DNA of 64,000 bases from an uncultured Roseicyclus sp. (GTDB lineage Bacteria > Pseudomonadota > Alphaproteobacteria > Rhodobacterales > Rhodobacteraceae). The DNA is taken from the NCBI GenBank assembly GCA_947500415.1, contig CANMRT010000001.1, forward strand, positions 1,142,982 through 1,206,981. Reading direction: 5' to 3'. Shown one piece after another: positions 31,033 through 46,806 of this stretch. Under the pieces are notes generated by a model that saw nothing but the letters and a program-made list of their open reading frames with translations, ran no database searches and was not told where the DNA came from. The position numbers and the translations under genes were made by a program. The stretch's first letter is position 1. The number at the start of each line of letters is the position of its first letter.

Positions 31033-31109
31033 GGGGTCCTCCGTGGGGTCAGGCAAAGGGGTGACATCGCGCGGGCCGATTGACAAGCGGGTCAGCCCGT
31101 GAGCAGTGT

Positions 31110-31290
31110 TTTCGACGATGGTGCGCCGGTTTGGCGCCGAAGAGGGAATGGGGTGAGATGCCCCGGCTGCCCCCGCAACTGTGAGTGGTTTGCTTCTTGT
31201 CAAAAGGCCACTGGGCGATGCCCGGGAAGGCGACAGGAAGCGCGGGCCACAAGCCAGGAGACCTGCCATCGCAACTGGAACTTATGTGCC
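31110..31290 (+). ncRNA. Cobalamin riboswitch (plus strand)
   Basis: Shows the conserved order of cobalamin riboswitch elements: GGTGC near 31120, GAAGAGGGAA, GGTGAGA, then GCTGCCCCCGCAACTGTGA, GCCACTGGG and CCCGGGAAGGC, and the B12 box AGCCAGGAGACCTGCC at 31252-31267. It sits in the leader of the 14-gene cobalamin run that starts with the DUF1636 gene at 31320, so adenosylcobalamin should repress that run. Confidence 0.93.
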
Positions 31291-37520: not shown

Positions 37521-38242
37521 GCGGGGTGATTTACGGCGTGGGGCTGGGGCCGGGGGATCCGGACCTGATGAGCGTGAAGGCAGATCGTTTGCTGCGGAAC
37601 GCCAAGCACGTGGCGTTCTTCCGGAAGGCTGGTCGGGCAGGTCGCGCGCGCAAGATTGTAGAGGGGATGCTGCACGCGGATGTGGTTGAATTCGCGATGG
37701 AATATCCGGTGACAACAGAAATTCCGCTGAGCGATCCGCGTTACAACGAAGTGCTGTCGGGCTTCTATGCGGAAGTTACGGCGCATCTGTGCAGGCTTGC
37801 CTCGAACGGCGAGGAGGTGGTGGTTTTGTGCGAGGGCGACCCGTTTTTCTATGGCTCGTTCATGCACCTTTATGAGCGGCTGAAGGACACTTGCGACGTG
37901 CAGGTCGTTCCCGCAATCACGGGCATGTCGGCGGCCTGGACGGCGACGGGCGCGCCGATCACCTGGGGCGACGATGTGTTGTCGGTGGTGATGGGGACCT
38001 TGGCTGAAGATGCGTTGGCAGATGCCATGGAACGCGCCGATGCGCTGGTGGTGATGAAGATCGGGCGCAATTTGGCGAACGTGCGCCGCGCGCTGGAGGC
38101 AGCAGGCAAGTCAGACCGCGCGGTGCTGGTGCAATATGCGGCGATGGAGGGGGAGGCTGTCTGTCCGTTGGCAGAGTTTGACGGCGAGGTGCTTCCCTAT
38201 TTCTCGATCATTGTGGTGCACGGGAAGGGGCGGCGCCCGTGA
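37517..38242 (+). CDS. cobI: Precorrin-2 C20-methyltransferase
   Basis: 241 residues, tetrapyrrole methylase fold. N-terminal SAM-site segment YGVGLGPGDPDLMSVKA, then CEGDPFFYGSFMHLYERL and VPAITGMSAAWTATGAPI. Converts precorrin-2 to precorrin-3A. Four-nt overlaps with cobH and cobJ imply coupled translation. Confidence 0.95.
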   Translation: MSGVIYGVGLGPGDPDLMSVKADRLLRNAKHVAFFRKAGRAGRARKIVEGMLHADVVEFAMEYPVTTEIPLSDPRYNEVLSGFYAEVTAHLCRLASNGEEVVVLCEGDPFFYGSFMHLYERLKDTCDVQVVPAITGMSAAWTATGAPITWGDDVLSVVMGTLAEDALADAMERADALVVMKIGRNLANVRRALEAAGKSDRAVLVQYAAMEGEAVCPLAEFDGEVLPYFSIIVVHGKGRRP

Positions 38243-38976
38243 GCGGCTGGGTTGTCGTGGCAGGCCTTGGGCCGGGGGACGCGGCTTTGATAACGCCGGA
38301 AGTCTCCGCCGTGTTGGCTGAGGCGACGGACGTAGTGGGATATATCCCTTACGTGAGGCGTGTCGCGGCGCGGCCAGGCCTGACATTGCATGAAAGCGAC
38401 AACCGGGTGGAGTTGGACCGCGCGGCCCATGCGTTGCAGATGGCGGCGGAGGGCAAGCGGGTGGTCGTGGTCTCGTCTGGCGATCCGGGCGTGTTTGCGA
38501 TGGCAAGCGCTGTGTTTGAGGCGCTGGAGGCCGGGCCTGCGGAGTGGCTTGGGTTGGACGTGCGCGTGCTGCCCGGCATCTCAGCGATGTTTGCGGCGAG
38601 CGCGAAGGCGGGTGCAGTGCTTGGGCATGATTTTTGCGCCATTAACCTGAGCGACAACCTGAAGTCGTGGGATCTTATAGAAAAGCGACTAAGGTTGGCG
38701 GCGGAGGCGGATTTCGCGATGGCCTTCTACAATCCCCGCTCCAAGGCGCGACCCGAGGGGTTCGGGCGGGTTTTGGAGGTTTTGCGGGAAGCTTGCGAGC
38801 CGGAGCGGGTGATCGTGTTCGCGCGGGCGGTGTCGACCGACGAAGAAGCGCTGCGGGTCGTACGCTTGGCCGAGGCGGAGCCTGAGATGGCGGATATGCG
38901 GACGGTGGTTTTGGTCGGCTCTTCAAAGACGCGCGTGGTGGGCGATTGGGTCTATACGCCGAGGTTCGTGGAATGA
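38239..38976 (+). CDS. cobJ: Precorrin-3B C17-methyltransferase
   Basis: 245 residues. Methylates C17 and drives ring contraction after CobG-type oxygenation. VVAGLGPGDAALITPE at the start, SSGDPGVFAMASAVFE, LPGISAMFAASAKAGA and HDFCAINLSDNLKSWD, and DFAMAFYNPRSKARP are typical of CobJ/CbiH. Its last 25 nt overlap the 3' end of cobK, which runs on the other strand. Confidence 0.95.
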   Translation: MSGWVVVAGLGPGDAALITPEVSAVLAEATDVVGYIPYVRRVAARPGLTLHESDNRVELDRAAHALQMAAEGKRVVVVSSGDPGVFAMASAVFEALEAGPAEWLGLDVRVLPGISAMFAASAKAGAVLGHDFCAINLSDNLKSWDLIEKRLRLAAEADFAMAFYNPRSKARPEGFGRVLEVLREACEPERVIVFARAVSTDEEALRVVRLAEAEPEMADMRTVVLVGSSKTRVVGDWVYTPRFVE

Positions 38977-39704
38977 TGGATCCAGTCGAGCACTTCGCCG
39001 GGCGTGGCCAGCTCGTGCCGCTTTGGCTGAGGCGGGCGGTCAATCATGACGACCGGCACGTTCAGCGCGCGTGCTGCGGCGAGCTTGGCATAAGCGCCTG
39101 TTCCACCGGAGTTTTTGGAGACGACGAGGTCGATCTTGTGGGCCTCCATCAGAGCCTTGTCGGAGGCTTCGTCAAACGGTCCCCGGTCAACGATGATCTC
39201 TGTGTTCGGCAAGGGCAGGGGCGCTTTGGGCGGATCAACAAGGCGCAGGACGTAGCGGTGCTGCGGGTTCGGGGCGAACGCGGCCAGATGCATTCGGCCC
39301 ACGGCGAGCAAGACGTTGCAGGCCGGGCGGTCGAGGGCCGTGACGGCGGCGGGGATGTCGGGCACGTGGGTCCAGTTGTCGCCCGAATGCGCGCGCCAAG
39401 CGGGCCGGGTGAGCGCGACCATGGGCACATTTGCGGCGTTTGCGGCGGCCACGGCGTTGTGGCTCATCACAGAAGCGAAGGGATGCGTGGCGTCGATCAG
39501 GTGGCTGATCTTGGCCTCGCGCAAGTAGGTGGCCAGGCCATCAACGCCCCCGAACCCACCGACACGCTGGGGCAGGGGTTGGCGCACGGGGCGGTCGACG
39601 CGGCCTGCGAAACTGACGGTGCCCGAAAGGCCAGCCTCGGCCACGGCGCGGGCCAGTGCGGTGGCCTCAAGCGTGCCGCCAAGGATCAGGAGGTTGGTCT
39701 GCAT
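38952..39704 (-). CDS. cobK: Precorrin-6A reductase, antisense inside the cob operon
   Basis: 250 residues from MQTNLLILGGTLEATALARA. NADPH-dependent reduction of precorrin-6A. LILGGTLEAT (dinucleotide loop), LIDATHPFASVMSHNA and VVSKNSGGTGAYAKLAAAR are CobK/CbiJ hallmarks. It is the only gene on the minus strand between cobN and cobF. It overlaps cobJ tail to tail by 25 nt, and its ATG (complement of 39702-39704) and the cobL ATG (39703-39705) share the palindrome CATG. Its ribosome site (AAGG about 9 nt upstream) lies within cobL. It must have its own promoter inside cobL. Confidence 0.93.
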   Translation of the reverse strand: MQTNLLILGGTLEATALARAVAEAGLSGTVSFAGRVDRPVRQPLPQRVGGFGGVDGLATYLREAKISHLIDATHPFASVMSHNAVAAANAANVPMVALTRPAWRAHSGDNWTHVPDIPAAVTALDRPACNVLLAVGRMHLAAFAPNPQHRYVLRLVDPPKAPLPLPNTEIIVDRGPFDEASDKALMEAHKIDLVVSKNSGGTGAYAKLAAARALNVPVVMIDRPPQPKRHELATPGEVLDWIHHSTNLGV

Positions 39705-40902
39705 GGCTGAGCCTTGGATCACGATCATCGGTCTGGGCGAAGATGGACCGGACGGCTTGTCGGCTGCAAGCCGGGAGGCGCTGGAAAAGGCCGAGGTGGT
39801 GATGGGACCGTCTCGGCACTTGGGTCTGATCGAGACGAGTGCGGAGACCGTGGAATGGCCGGTGCCGTTTGCGGACGGCTATGCGGTGCTTGAAGGTTTG
39901 CGCGGCAAACAGGTTGCGGTTTTGGCCTCTGGCGATCCGTTCTGGTTCGGGGCGGGTCGCGCGATTTCGGGGCATTTCCCCGGCGAATGGCGGGCATTTC
40001 CCGGGGTGTCGATCTTCGGACTGGTCGCTTCGCGGCTTGGGTGGGCGTTGGAAGACGTCGCCTGCGTTGGATTGCATGCCGCGCCCTTTGCCCGTCTGCG
40101 ACGGCACTTGGTGGAAGACGCGTTGATCATCGCAACCCTGCGCGACGGCCCGTCGGTTTCGAAACTTGCCCGCTATCTACGCGACACCGGGTTTGCAGGG
40201 ACGCGCATGTTTGTCTGCCATGCCATAGGCGGACCGCTTGAATACGTGGAAGGCATGTCCGTTTTTGAGGCTTTGAAAGGCGGCTTCAAGCATCCGGTCG
40301 CTGTCGGTCTGTCGATTGCGGCAAAGGACATTTCGTACACATTGCCCCGCGCAAGCGGCATCGCTGACGCGTTCTTCGACACGGATGGCGTGATGACCAA
40401 ACGGCCGCTTAGGGCCATGACCCTTTCTGCGCTTGCGCCACGTAGGGGTGAGCATTTGTGGGACATCGGTGGGGGATCGGGGAGCATTGCGATCGAATGG
40501 CTGCTGGCTGACGATCTGTGCCGCGCAACCATCGTGGAGCCGCGCGCCGACCGGTGTGCGCTGATCCGGGCCAATGCGGAAGCCCTTGGCGTCGAACATC
40601 GTTTGGAAGTGCTGGAGGCCAGCGCACCTGAGGTTTTGCCCGCCTTGGACCGCCCCGATGCTGTCTTCATCGGGGGCGGCTTGGACGCGGACACGCGTTT
40701 GGCGATCTGGGCTGCAGTGGCGGAAGGGACGCGGGTTGTGGCCAATGCGGTGACGCTTGAAACTGAGGCGTTGTTGGTGGATTGGCAGGCCAAATTCGGC
40801 GGAGACTTGATGAAGGTTGAGATTTCCAGTTCAAGCCCGATGGGCAGCAAACGTGGCTGGAAAGCGGCCTATCCGGTTGTGCAATGGAGCGTCGTACGAT
40901 GA
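39703..40902 (+). CDS. cobL: Precorrin-6Y C5,15-methyltransferase (decarboxylating)
   Basis: 399 residues. N-terminal tetrapyrrole methylase domain (TIIGLGEDGPDGLSAASREA, CbiE-like) and, from about residue 240, a Rossmann methyltransferase domain with HLWDIGGGSGSIAIEWLLA (CbiT-like, which also decarboxylates). The start at 39703 follows AGGAGG at 39688-39693, which lies inside cobK on the other strand; a longer frame upstream to 39529 is cobK antisense. Ends in an ATGA overlap with cobE. Confidence 0.94.
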   Translation: MAEPWITIIGLGEDGPDGLSAASREALEKAEVVMGPSRHLGLIETSAETVEWPVPFADGYAVLEGLRGKQVAVLASGDPFWFGAGRAISGHFPGEWRAFPGVSIFGLVASRLGWALEDVACVGLHAAPFARLRRHLVEDALIIATLRDGPSVSKLARYLRDTGFAGTRMFVCHAIGGPLEYVEGMSVFEALKGGFKHPVAVGLSIAAKDISYTLPRASGIADAFFDTDGVMTKRPLRAMTLSALAPRRGEHLWDIGGGSGSIAIEWLLADDLCRATIVEPRADRCALIRANAEALGVEHRLEVLEASAPEVLPALDRPDAVFIGGGLDADTRLAIWAAVAEGTRVVANAVTLETEALLVDWQAKFGGDLMKVEISSSSPMGSKRGWKAAYPVVQWSVVR

Positions 40903-41252
40903 TCGTGGCAGGGTTCGGATTTCGCGGATCAGCGACCGAGGAAAGCTTAGCTGACGCCTATGCCAAAGCTGGCACGGCGCATGTCGCCGCGACTGTTTCG
41001 GATAAGGTTGCTGGGGCATTCAGTGCATTTGCGAAGGCTCAAGGGCTGTCTGAAAAAGGCGTTTCTGCAGAGGATTTGGTTGTCCAAGACACGGTGACGC
41101 AAAGCTTCACTTCGCTGGCGGAACGCGGCACGGGCTCGGTGGCGGAGGCTGCAGCCCTGGCGGCGGCGGGAGAGGGCGCGCGGTTGATCAAGGCGCGGGT
41201 GATCTCAGACGATGGATGCGCAACTTGCGCCTTGGCGGAGAGCGCGGAATGA
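40899..41252 (+). CDS. cobE: CobE / CbiG C-terminal-domain protein
   Basis: 117 residues. [21 protein letters not shown] is the standard CobE/CbiG_C opening, and ends in [10 protein letters not shown]. In the aerobic pathway its exact role is unsettled; the anaerobic homologue CbiG opens the ring-A lactone. Start by ATGA overlap with cobL, and its own stop overlaps the cobM ATG. Confidence 0.88.
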
Positions 41253-45645: not shown

Positions 45646-46347
45646 TTAGGCCGTTTGCGATTGTTCCGACGCACCCACACCGCGCGACCAGAAGTAGCCT
45701 GCGAAGGTGCCAACTAACGCCCAGGCGACCATGCCAATGCCAAGGGCGCGCGCCGCAAATAACGCGCCAAGCTCGGTCGGGACGGGGCCGGAGAAGACTT
45801 CAGGCTCGGGCGCGCCGTAGACATGCGGGGCGAGCAGCAAGACCGCCGCGCCGATCCACGCGGCCCAGTTGGAGCCGAAAGCGATCAGCCACATGGCGCC
45901 TGCGGCCATCGCAACCGTGATGAACCACCAGACCTGTCGCACGGTGACATCCGCTGCGGCCACACCGGGCACTTCCGGGGCCAGGCTGAAGCCCGGCGCG
46001 AAGTGGACCGCAACGAACCCCGCAAGACCCCAAAGTAGGCCGGTGCGCGCGTTGATCTGCGCGCCTTGGCCCTCGGCTACCGACATCAACGCGGTCAGAA
46101 CCAACGCATATCCGCAATAGATTAGCATGGTGAAGACGATGGACAGCCCATCGCGGATCGGGTCGAAGCCGGGAAGCTCTTGCGCCGCAGGCACAATGCT
46201 ATCGACGCCGAAATGAACCAGATCGCCGCCTTCGTAGAGTTCGGCATGGAGCAGGACAGGTTGGACGAACCAAAGCTGCAACAGGGCCGTCAACAGGCCT
46301 GCAGCTGCGCCAGCGAATAGACCGCTGGTCAGCAAACGTGTGAACAT
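45646..46347 (-). CDS. cbtA: Cobalt transporter subunit CbtA
   Basis: 233 residues, start MFTRLLTSGLFAGAAAGLLT. About five to six hydrophobic helices with conserved acidic and His residues typical of CbtA (for example GLAGFVAVHFAPGFSLAPEVPG and WFITVAMAAGAMWLIAF). CbtAB is a predicted cobalt importer regulated by cobalamin riboswitches. Follows cbtB by 16 bp. Confidence 0.92.
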   Translation of the reverse strand: MFTRLLTSGLFAGAAAGLLTALLQLWFVQPVLLHAELYEGGDLVHFGVDSIVPAAQELPGFDPIRDGLSIVFTMLIYCGYALVLTALMSVAEGQGAQINARTGLLWGLAGFVAVHFAPGFSLAPEVPGVAAADVTVRQVWWFITVAMAAGAMWLIAFGSNWAAWIGAAVLLLAPHVYGAPEPEVFSGPVPTELGALFAARALGIGMVAWALVGTFAGYFWSRGVGASEQSQTA

Positions 46348-46363
46348 GATGTGCCCCTGGGGT

Positions 46364-46528
46364 TTAGTGGCAGGGGAAGCCGGTGGCGTGGCGCACGTCG
46401 TGGGCCGCGTCATGCAGCGTGGCGGCCTGAACATGGCCGGTCACAACCATGATGGCGATACCGATCATCGCAACGAGGGTTGCGGCGCCGATGGTGGCCT
46501 TCGAGGAAGTCTGCGTTTGCATCGTCAT
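46364..46528 (-). CDS. cbtB: Cobalt transporter subunit CbtB
   Basis: 54 residues from MTMQTQTSSKATIGAATLVA after AAGGAG (46537-46542). One transmembrane helix and the diagnostic His-rich tail HDAAHDVRHATGFPCH, which is thought to bind cobalt. First gene after the minus-strand riboswitch. Confidence 0.93.
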   Translation of the reverse strand: MTMQTQTSSKATIGAATLVAMIGIAIMVVTGHVQAATLHDAAHDVRHATGFPCH

Positions 46529-46577
46529 GTCATCTGCTCCTTGCGACCGCCACCCCGGCGGCTGGTTTGCGTTACAC

Positions 46578-46757
46578 ACACGGCAGGTCTCCTGGCTCGT
46601 GGCCTTGGTCTGGATGGCCTTCCCGGATCGAAATCCAGTGGCATATGCATCCAGACGGCCCACTTACAGTTGCGGGGGCAGCTGCCGGTTTGCACCGCAT
46701 TGGTGCGCACGACATTCCCTCTTACCTCCCGGTCGATGCCGGGAACCGAATGTAAGA
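46578..46757 (-). ncRNA. Cobalamin riboswitch (minus strand)
   Basis: Read on the minus strand, the B12 box (GAGCCAGGAGACCTGCC, plus-strand 46582-46597) is preceded by GGGAAGGCC, GCCACTGG and GCTGCCCCCGCAACTGTAA, with GAGGTAAGAGGGAATG further 5'. It precedes cbtB by about 50 bp and should lower cobalt import when cobalamin is high. Confidence 0.92.
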
Positions 46758-46806
46758 TGGTTCTGACAGACGCGCGTAAGGAGAGTCAAACCCGAAAGCG
46801 ACCCAT

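Follow-up and report, generated by a model that had tools for sequence, protein, structure and literature searches.

The locus described here raises the question of how an operon passes a gene that lies inside it on the opposite strand. In an uncultured Roseicyclus sp. (contig CANMRT010000001.1, positions 1,142,982 to 1,206,981; this stretch of 64,000 nucleotides (nt) is the window, and all coordinates refer to it), cobK is the sole minus-strand member named in a riboswitch-led cobalamin (cob) operon and is placed between cobJ and cobL. The plus strand opposite cobK likely acts as a translated bridge between cobJ and cobL, formed by an open reading frame (ORF) that is referred to below as the bridge ORF. 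The features concerned, including the Shine–Dalgarno (SD) sequence of the ORF, are given below.

31102–31284, plus strand: RF00174 cobalamin riboswitch preceding the cob operon (131.8 bits, an Rfam gathering match)
38239–38976, plus strand: cobJ, precorrin-3B C17-methyltransferase (TIGR01466, 5.9e-86)
38952–39704, minus strand: cobK, precorrin-6A reductase, antisense within the operon (NF005968, 2.3e-97; PF02571, 1.2e-72)
39703–40902, plus strand: cobL, precorrin-6Y C5,15-methyltransferase (CbiE and CbiT: TIGR02467, TIGR02469)
38973–39710, plus strand: bridge ORF of 245 codons, antisense to cobK with the codons aligned (186 of 200 loci have it open and in phase)
38961–38964, plus strand: putative SD of the bridge ORF, GAGG embedded in cobJ, where codon 242 supplies AGG, a rare codon for Arg
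39708–39710, plus strand: stop codon TGA of the bridge ORF, at +5 from the cobL ATG

Position of the bridge ORF between cobJ and cobL

Family matches and strands agree with the first-pass annotation of this DNA, which had placed cobK antisense between cobJ and cobL, with a tail-to-tail cobJ/cobK overlap of 25 nt (38952–38976) and a riboswitch ahead of the operon. That annotation did not contain the bridge ORF, which covers the strand opposite cobK except for the cobK 3′ end. The ATG of the ORF overlaps the cobJ stop codon as ATGA and is preceded by GAGG at a distance of 8 nt, and its TGA overlaps the cobL start as ATGGCTGA.

For comparison, 263 loci were gathered as best CobK matches, some of the records being metagenome bins. 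The antisense placement of cobK between cobJ and cobL was found in 202 of them (200 after removal of identical copies), a fraction that is no measure of prevalence because the loci were chosen as best CobK matches. The named loci include Rhodobacterales, Sphingomonas, Novosphingobium, Acetobacter, Bradyrhizobium, Mesorhizobium, Variovorax, Aquabacterium, Curvibacter, and Halomonas; class and order were assigned by way of the organism names that the record titles give. The ORF is present in one strain each of Ruegeria pomeroyi and Bradyrhizobium (L034 and L091). In the 186 open loci, the other two plus-strand frames contain 773 and 899 stops. The comparison shows that the start of the bridge ORF is held at the cobJ stop: a start codon lies at most 12 nt from it in all 186 loci, as an XTGA overlap in 173 (ATGA 142, GTGA 29, TTGA 2) and within 12 nt in the other 13 (ATG at the last stop base in 7, others in 6). 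The stop codons are TGA in 170 loci and TAA in 16, and TAG was not found. Measured against the nearest in-frame cobL ATG, the stop is at +5 in 145 loci, +8 in 11, and +1 in 8, and it falls within −5 to +20 in 176 of the 186. The geometry of coupled cistrons was thus found at both ends, with XTGA starts in 173 and stops at +1, +5, or +8 in 164 of the 186 loci, and the end of the bridge tracks cobL often, not always. The cobJ/cobK spacing takes 36 distinct values, from a 67-nt overlap to a 278-nt gap, with the frame kept in 30 of the 36; among the distinct non-overlapping spacings it is kept in 12 of 15 (P = 3e-4), in a test that scores locus L029 as in phase although its frame has six stops.

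Since the stops at the three favored positions are the usual coupling geometries, the bridge might mainly deliver ribosomes to cobL by termination–reinitiation at fixed stoichiometry, with Rho playing no part. We regard this as a tentative possibility. It has to contend with the strong SD that cobL keeps of its own (z = −14), with the fact that coupling could be achieved by a short ORF close to cobL, and with the loci in which the nearest cobK and cobL ATGs are at least 10 nt apart, where the bridge ends outside −5 to +20 of cobL in 8 of 21.

Selection on cobK codons for an open frame

The cobK codons TTA, CTA, and TCA are stops in the bridge frame. With the codon usage of cobJ and cobL of the same locus as the expectation, 13 such codons were seen against 202 expected in 194 loci with a G+C content at third codon positions (GC3) of at least 0.5, and 185 of these loci had none at all, as compared with 93.5 expected. 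When one locus was taken per 60%-identity cluster (30 loci), 2 were seen against 33.5 expected. The control group comprised 59 of the 61 loci with cobK in other contexts; the two excluded were one that gave no cobK match and one that was short or a duplicate. The control cobK genes use the three codons normally; at GC3 of 0.6–0.9 they account for 65 of 11006 codons (46 loci), against 13 of 43336 in antisense cobK (177 loci; Fisher P = 1e-32). Per 250 codons in three GC3 bins of this range, the control gave 2.12, 1.64, and 0.87 and antisense cobK 0.24, 0.07, and 0.05. The depletion also follows the ORF within cobK: in the 190 in-phase loci, 5 of 45274 codons inside the ORF span are stop-making, against 4 of 1261 in the tail outside it. 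In the low-GC3 locus L035, stop-making codons number 5 in cobJ, 11 in cobL, and 0 in cobK. On these comparisons, the bridge frame is kept open by selection on cobK synonymous codons, and an open frame kept by selection, as looked for in an antisense overlapping protein-coding gene, was found here.

GC-rich genes commonly have long ORFs on their opposite strand, and the bridge ORF could be such a by-product, the overlaps being relics of compaction. High GC does lower TTA, CTA, and TCA, and the 93.5 loci mentioned above would have none by chance. This explanation is hardly credible, as 185 loci have none and cobK elsewhere is normal at equal GC3, low-GC3 loci such as L035 stay open, and the start and the SD are kept as well. 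A GC-driven antisense ORF is ruled out by the equal-GC3 controls.

Two further observations concern serine codons in the cobK of the 186 open loci, where TCG is depleted (317 against 540 expected) and AGC is enriched (628 against 360). In the bridge frame, TCG would be read as CGA (Arg), and a single step separates TCN from TCA.

Seven plasmid loci, taken from 248 records, were compared as well (three of Rhizobiaceae and one each of Azospirillum, Nitratireductor, Paracoccus, and Pseudosulfitobacter). All seven have an XTGA start, the part of cobK that was read is free of stop-making codons in each, and the bridge stop relative to an ATG or GTG is at +5 in five, +1 in one, and +11 (TAG) in one. 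Existing annotation of the bridge ORF was not found in the four annotated loci among these seven (the gene table is incomplete).

Signals embedded in coding sequence and the putative cobK promoter

Further signals lie within the coding sequences around the cobK and cobL starts.

39702–39705, both strands: CATG common to the divergent cobK and cobL starts (sequence; relatives compared)
39688–39693, plus strand: cobL SD AGGAGG inside cobK codons (z = −14 against synonymous resampling of the cobK head, 157 loci)
39712–39715, minus strand: cobK SD AAGG inside cobL codons 4–5 (a weaker signal, z = −4.5, 157 loci)
39764–39771, minus strand: predicted −35 region of the cobK promoter, GCTTGCAG, in cobL around codons 22–23 (codon bias)
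39740–39745, minus strand: predicted −10 of the cobK promoter, CATCTT, in cobL (18 nt from TTGCAG)

Codon bias was scanned by column across the three genes in 183 loci. The last cobL codon overlaps the following gene through ATGA and so was expected to be biased; it was indeed among the highest columns, which provides a positive control. Arg 242 of cobJ, which forms the bridge SD, is AGG in 70 of the 183 loci against 8 expected, and the energy of this SD gave z = −14 against synonymous resampling (173 loci). The strongest column of the three genes is cobL codon 22, with GCA in 130 of the 147 loci that have Ala (14 expected), and codon 23 is AGC in 127 of the 136 loci that have Ser (38 expected). 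On the cobK strand these two codons read GCTTGC, with a −35-like TTG, and at the −10 place cobL codons 13–14 are GAA in 114 loci (72 expected) and GAT in 136 (75 expected). Transcription of cobK from a promoter inside cobL, as the first-pass annotation had proposed, is supported by this promoter-like constraint, GCA AGC at codons 22–23 being far above codon usage. A consensus scan of 38200–40300 found no E. coli-type promoter for cobK, so the promoter claim rests on the cobL codon bias. The control for it is weak: among 19 control-group loci with a cobL match, ten were readable, and GCAAGC at codons 22–23 was found in 0 of 10. The amino acids differ at these codons, GCA occurs at codon 22 in two of the ten, and control locus L214 has the same GCAAGC string a few bases earlier. 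Other codon columns were also high (z of 10 to 26, e.g., K244, K75, J141, and J2). K244 lies in the cobJ/cobK overlap, and codon 75 of the cobK alignment, where Ser is AGC in 145 of 179 loci (50 expected), matches no element described here.

The sharing of one CATG by both starts holds in the window, the cobL ATG being 39703–39705 on the plus strand and the cobK ATG 39704–39702 on the minus strand, and each SD was found inside the opposite gene as claimed, AGGAGG 9 nt before the cobL ATG and AAGG (39715→39712) 7 nt before the cobK ATG. As to how widely the sharing is kept, the CATG is common to the nearest ATGs in 142 of the 200 loci, and some in-frame ATG pair shares it in 165. A second in-frame cobK ATG at 39728 (minus strand), 24 nt upstream, adds the 8 residues MIVIQGSA; no SD was seen for it by eye, and the cobK family profile begins at the inner ATG. 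An upstream ATG of this type also occurs in some relatives because cobL encodes TIIG there, and that of the window is a few nt downstream of the transcription start predicted for cobK, which would be about 30 nt ahead of the inner ATG. In L010, L012, L076, L096, L097, L111, and L112, CATG is changed to GATG, TATG, or AATG, so that the cobL ATG is kept and the cobK ATG is lost there, with ATC, ATA, or ATT in place or an in-frame ATG or TTG elsewhere. It is possible that the cobK start is non-canonical or shifted in these seven loci.

The first-pass annotation had read the locus as a noncontiguous operon with possible mutual control: its long transcript would pair with cobK mRNA as an antisense RNA, and processing of the duplex could link the dosage of cobK to the operon and to B12. 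An antisense gene in a riboswitch-led operon and the promoter-like constraint inside cobL are in agreement with this, as is a terminator scan of 38200–40300, which found none between cobJ and cobL, its single site, at 38491, being within cobJ (shuffled sequence gives 1.8). No RNA family was found at the junction at E ≤ 0.1 (38200–40950). This antisense-RNA explanation is nevertheless quite unlikely, as it predicts no open frame, no keeping of frame, no SD, and no stop at cobL, all of which are observed, and translation of the segment would oppose pairing. The open frame, its start at the cobJ stop, and the kept SD do not bear out a non-coding plus-strand segment. Of the noncontiguous layout, the opposite-strand gene within an operon of related genes stands, and the untranslated stretch does not, by comparative inference. 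The segment is probably covered by ribosomes, which would work against full-length pairing with cobK mRNA; RNA-duplex regulation is less likely if the stretch is translated. The two could coexist, and antisense regulation could be superimposed on the bridge, although it is not needed for the observations made here.

The peptide encoded by the bridge ORF

Synonymous identity was evaluated in 183 of the 200 loci (full cobJ and cobL, no stop-making codon before the last 15) with 6000 of 16653 pairs. Among pairs that share about 50% CobK identity, the identity of synonymous codons relative to expectation was 1.119 in cobK, 1.121 in cobJ, and 1.093 in cobL, and in the bins from 0.4 to 0.8 the value for cobK was within 0.02 of that for cobJ. 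The BLOSUM excess of the antisense frame over expectation was 0.330 for cobK and 0.307 and 0.341 for the controls cobJ and cobL (3000 pairs). The bridge ORF of the window has no Pfam match, and its peptide is predicted to be unfolded, with an AlphaFold predicted local distance difference test (pLDDT) score of 33 (16 sequences), a figure without a folded control for comparison. A peptide that mattered would freeze the third positions of cobK; these are not frozen, and therefore, within the reach of the tests, openness is selected and the sequence is not. Selection on the encoded amino acids was not found, the 183 loci showing no excess over cobJ and cobL.

Owing to its ATGA and ATGNNTGA coupling, SD, and open frame, the bridge ORF resembles a normal operon gene, and it could encode a working protein and form with cobK a true overlapping gene pair. 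This is very unlikely, as the synonymous sites of cobK are no more constrained than those of cobJ and cobL except in eight very close pairs, and the antisense amino-acid similarity does not exceed that of the two control genes. A functional antisense protein is thus not supported by synonymous identity, BLOSUM excess, Pfam, or pLDDT.

Proposed role of the bridge ORF

We infer that the bridge frame is translated, with Rho polarity and coupling as the reason, and that being translated matters whereas the product does not. Ribosomes ending cobJ would restart at the overlapping ATGA on the 245-codon ORF, cross nearly all of the cobK antisense, and stop at ATGGCTGA atop the cobL start, where the same ribosomes, or others recruited by AGGAGG, would begin cobL. 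The benefit would be a riboswitch-controlled polycistronic RNA without a 726-nt untranslated gap; closing the gap would prevent Rho-dependent polarity, shield the RNA from pairing with cobK mRNA, and couple cobL to cobJ. cobK would be read from its own promoter inside cobL with its own SD, and the bridge peptide would be disposable, the frame being held open via cobK synonymous codons. The full-length frame argues for relief of Rho polarity and for shielding, and the usual stop at cobL argues for ribosome delivery. On balance, we lean toward a full-length antisense element whose only job is to be translated, letting the operon pass an opposite-strand gene without Rho polarity or RNA pairing.

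Several observations weigh against this proposal. Fourteen of the 200 loci fail the strict ORF test. Ten are out of phase (L055, L057, L059, L154, L177, L189, L193, L200, L203, and L240), of which L189 and L240 have no stop opposite cobK, and four are in phase with stops (L029, L097, L151, and L261). All six loci with GC3 below 0.5 are among the 14; in five of them (L055, L057, L059, L154, and L193, the first three being close relatives) stop-making codons are near or above the neutral expectation, and the sixth, L261, has 3 against 8.5 expected. The low-GC3 loci lack the bridge, and therefore the arrangement can live without it. The pattern looks on or off among loci; the low-GC3 exceptions might be accounted for if Rho acts poorly on AT-rich RNA, which is conjecture. 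The loci are related, and at 50% identity only 7 representatives are left, with 2 stop-making codons against 6.6 expected. When the cobL start is picked by the best SD, the bridge stop is at +5 in only 110 and within −5 to +20 in only 141 of the 186 loci. In the 21 loci with separated cobK and cobL ATGs, it is within −5 to +20 in only 13 and at +1 or +5 of cobL in 12; the count becomes 33 of 35 if cobL starts are chosen nearest the expected place, and 13 of 21, obtained without such choice, is the figure to use. With a strong SD of its own, cobL may not need to be coupled. In the closest bin of the synonymous-identity test (8 pairs), cobK reached 1.62 as compared with 1.54 for cobJ and 1.43 for cobL.

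The cob operon in the window

The plus-strand genes after the riboswitch are cobW, cobN, cobG, cobH, cobI, cobJ, cobL, cobE, and cobM, the label cobN resting on place and length. One further gene adjoins cobL.

40899–41252, plus strand: cobE-like gene, ATGA-coupled to cobL (matches the C-terminal part of NF004467 weakly, 7.5e-5)

With starts as assigned in this analysis, 4-nt ATGA or GTGA overlaps occur at cobN–cobG, cobH–cobI, cobI–cobJ, cobL–cobE, and cobE–cobM, and cobG and cobH overlap by 11 nt. All junctions from cobN to cobM overlap when the bridge ORF is counted; it therefore fills the single hole in the chain of overlaps.

A second cobalamin riboswitch (46565–46765, minus strand, 121 bits) reads toward a CbtA-type cobalt transporter gene (45646–46434, TIGR02458) and a small upstream ORF, which may be cbtB.

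Relation to known systems and implications

A noncontiguous operon has been described in Staphylococcus aureus, menE-menC-MW1733-ytkD-MW1731 (PMC7154746). As there, a gene is transcribed against the operon that contains it and overlapping mRNAs are expected; the likeness is drawn from gene order and strands. The part of the S. aureus polycistronic mRNA that faces the inner gene is described as untranslated, whereas here that stretch is kept as an ORF joined to both neighbors (PMC7154746). In E. coli O157:H7, several long genes that overlap another gene in antisense, among them pop and laoB, have been proposed to be protein-coding, and like them the bridge ORF is embedded antisense to an annotated gene; unlike in those cases, the open frame is conserved over several orders and the peptide is not (PMC7103648; PMC5810103; PMC9927249). 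For Ensifer adhaerens/Pseudomonas denitrificans SC510, stop/start overlaps between neighboring cobH-I-J-K-L were reported in Rhizobiales, and the portion of that account consulted has no mention of an antisense ORF, a frame constraint, or a cobK promoter (PMC4070679). No report of an ORF opposite cobK or of a bridge ORF was recognized in searches of an open-access library, and subscription papers may hold more. Noncontiguous operons and the cobJ/cobK/cobL overlaps were already known, and the bridge ORF would be the new part.

The ATGA and ATGNNTGA junctions of the bridge ORF are like those of coupled cistrons and leader ORFs. In translationally coupled operon cistrons and in leader or coupling ORFs, translation itself can be the function. 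Those are short or encode useful proteins on an otherwise free strand, whereas the bridge has 245 codons opposite another gene. Antitermination and internal promoters are known answers for an operon that has to cross an antisense stretch, and the bridge would add another.

The case is one in which an open frame is under selection and its product is not. If the proposal is true, the inner gene is forced to shun three synonymous codons, and one synonymous change in cobK should lower the expression of cobL and the genes behind it. The codon-depletion test can be used to find translated antisense frames in any genome, and if the arrangement is general, bridges may also occur at antisense genes that lie within actively translated operons in other GC-rich genomes.

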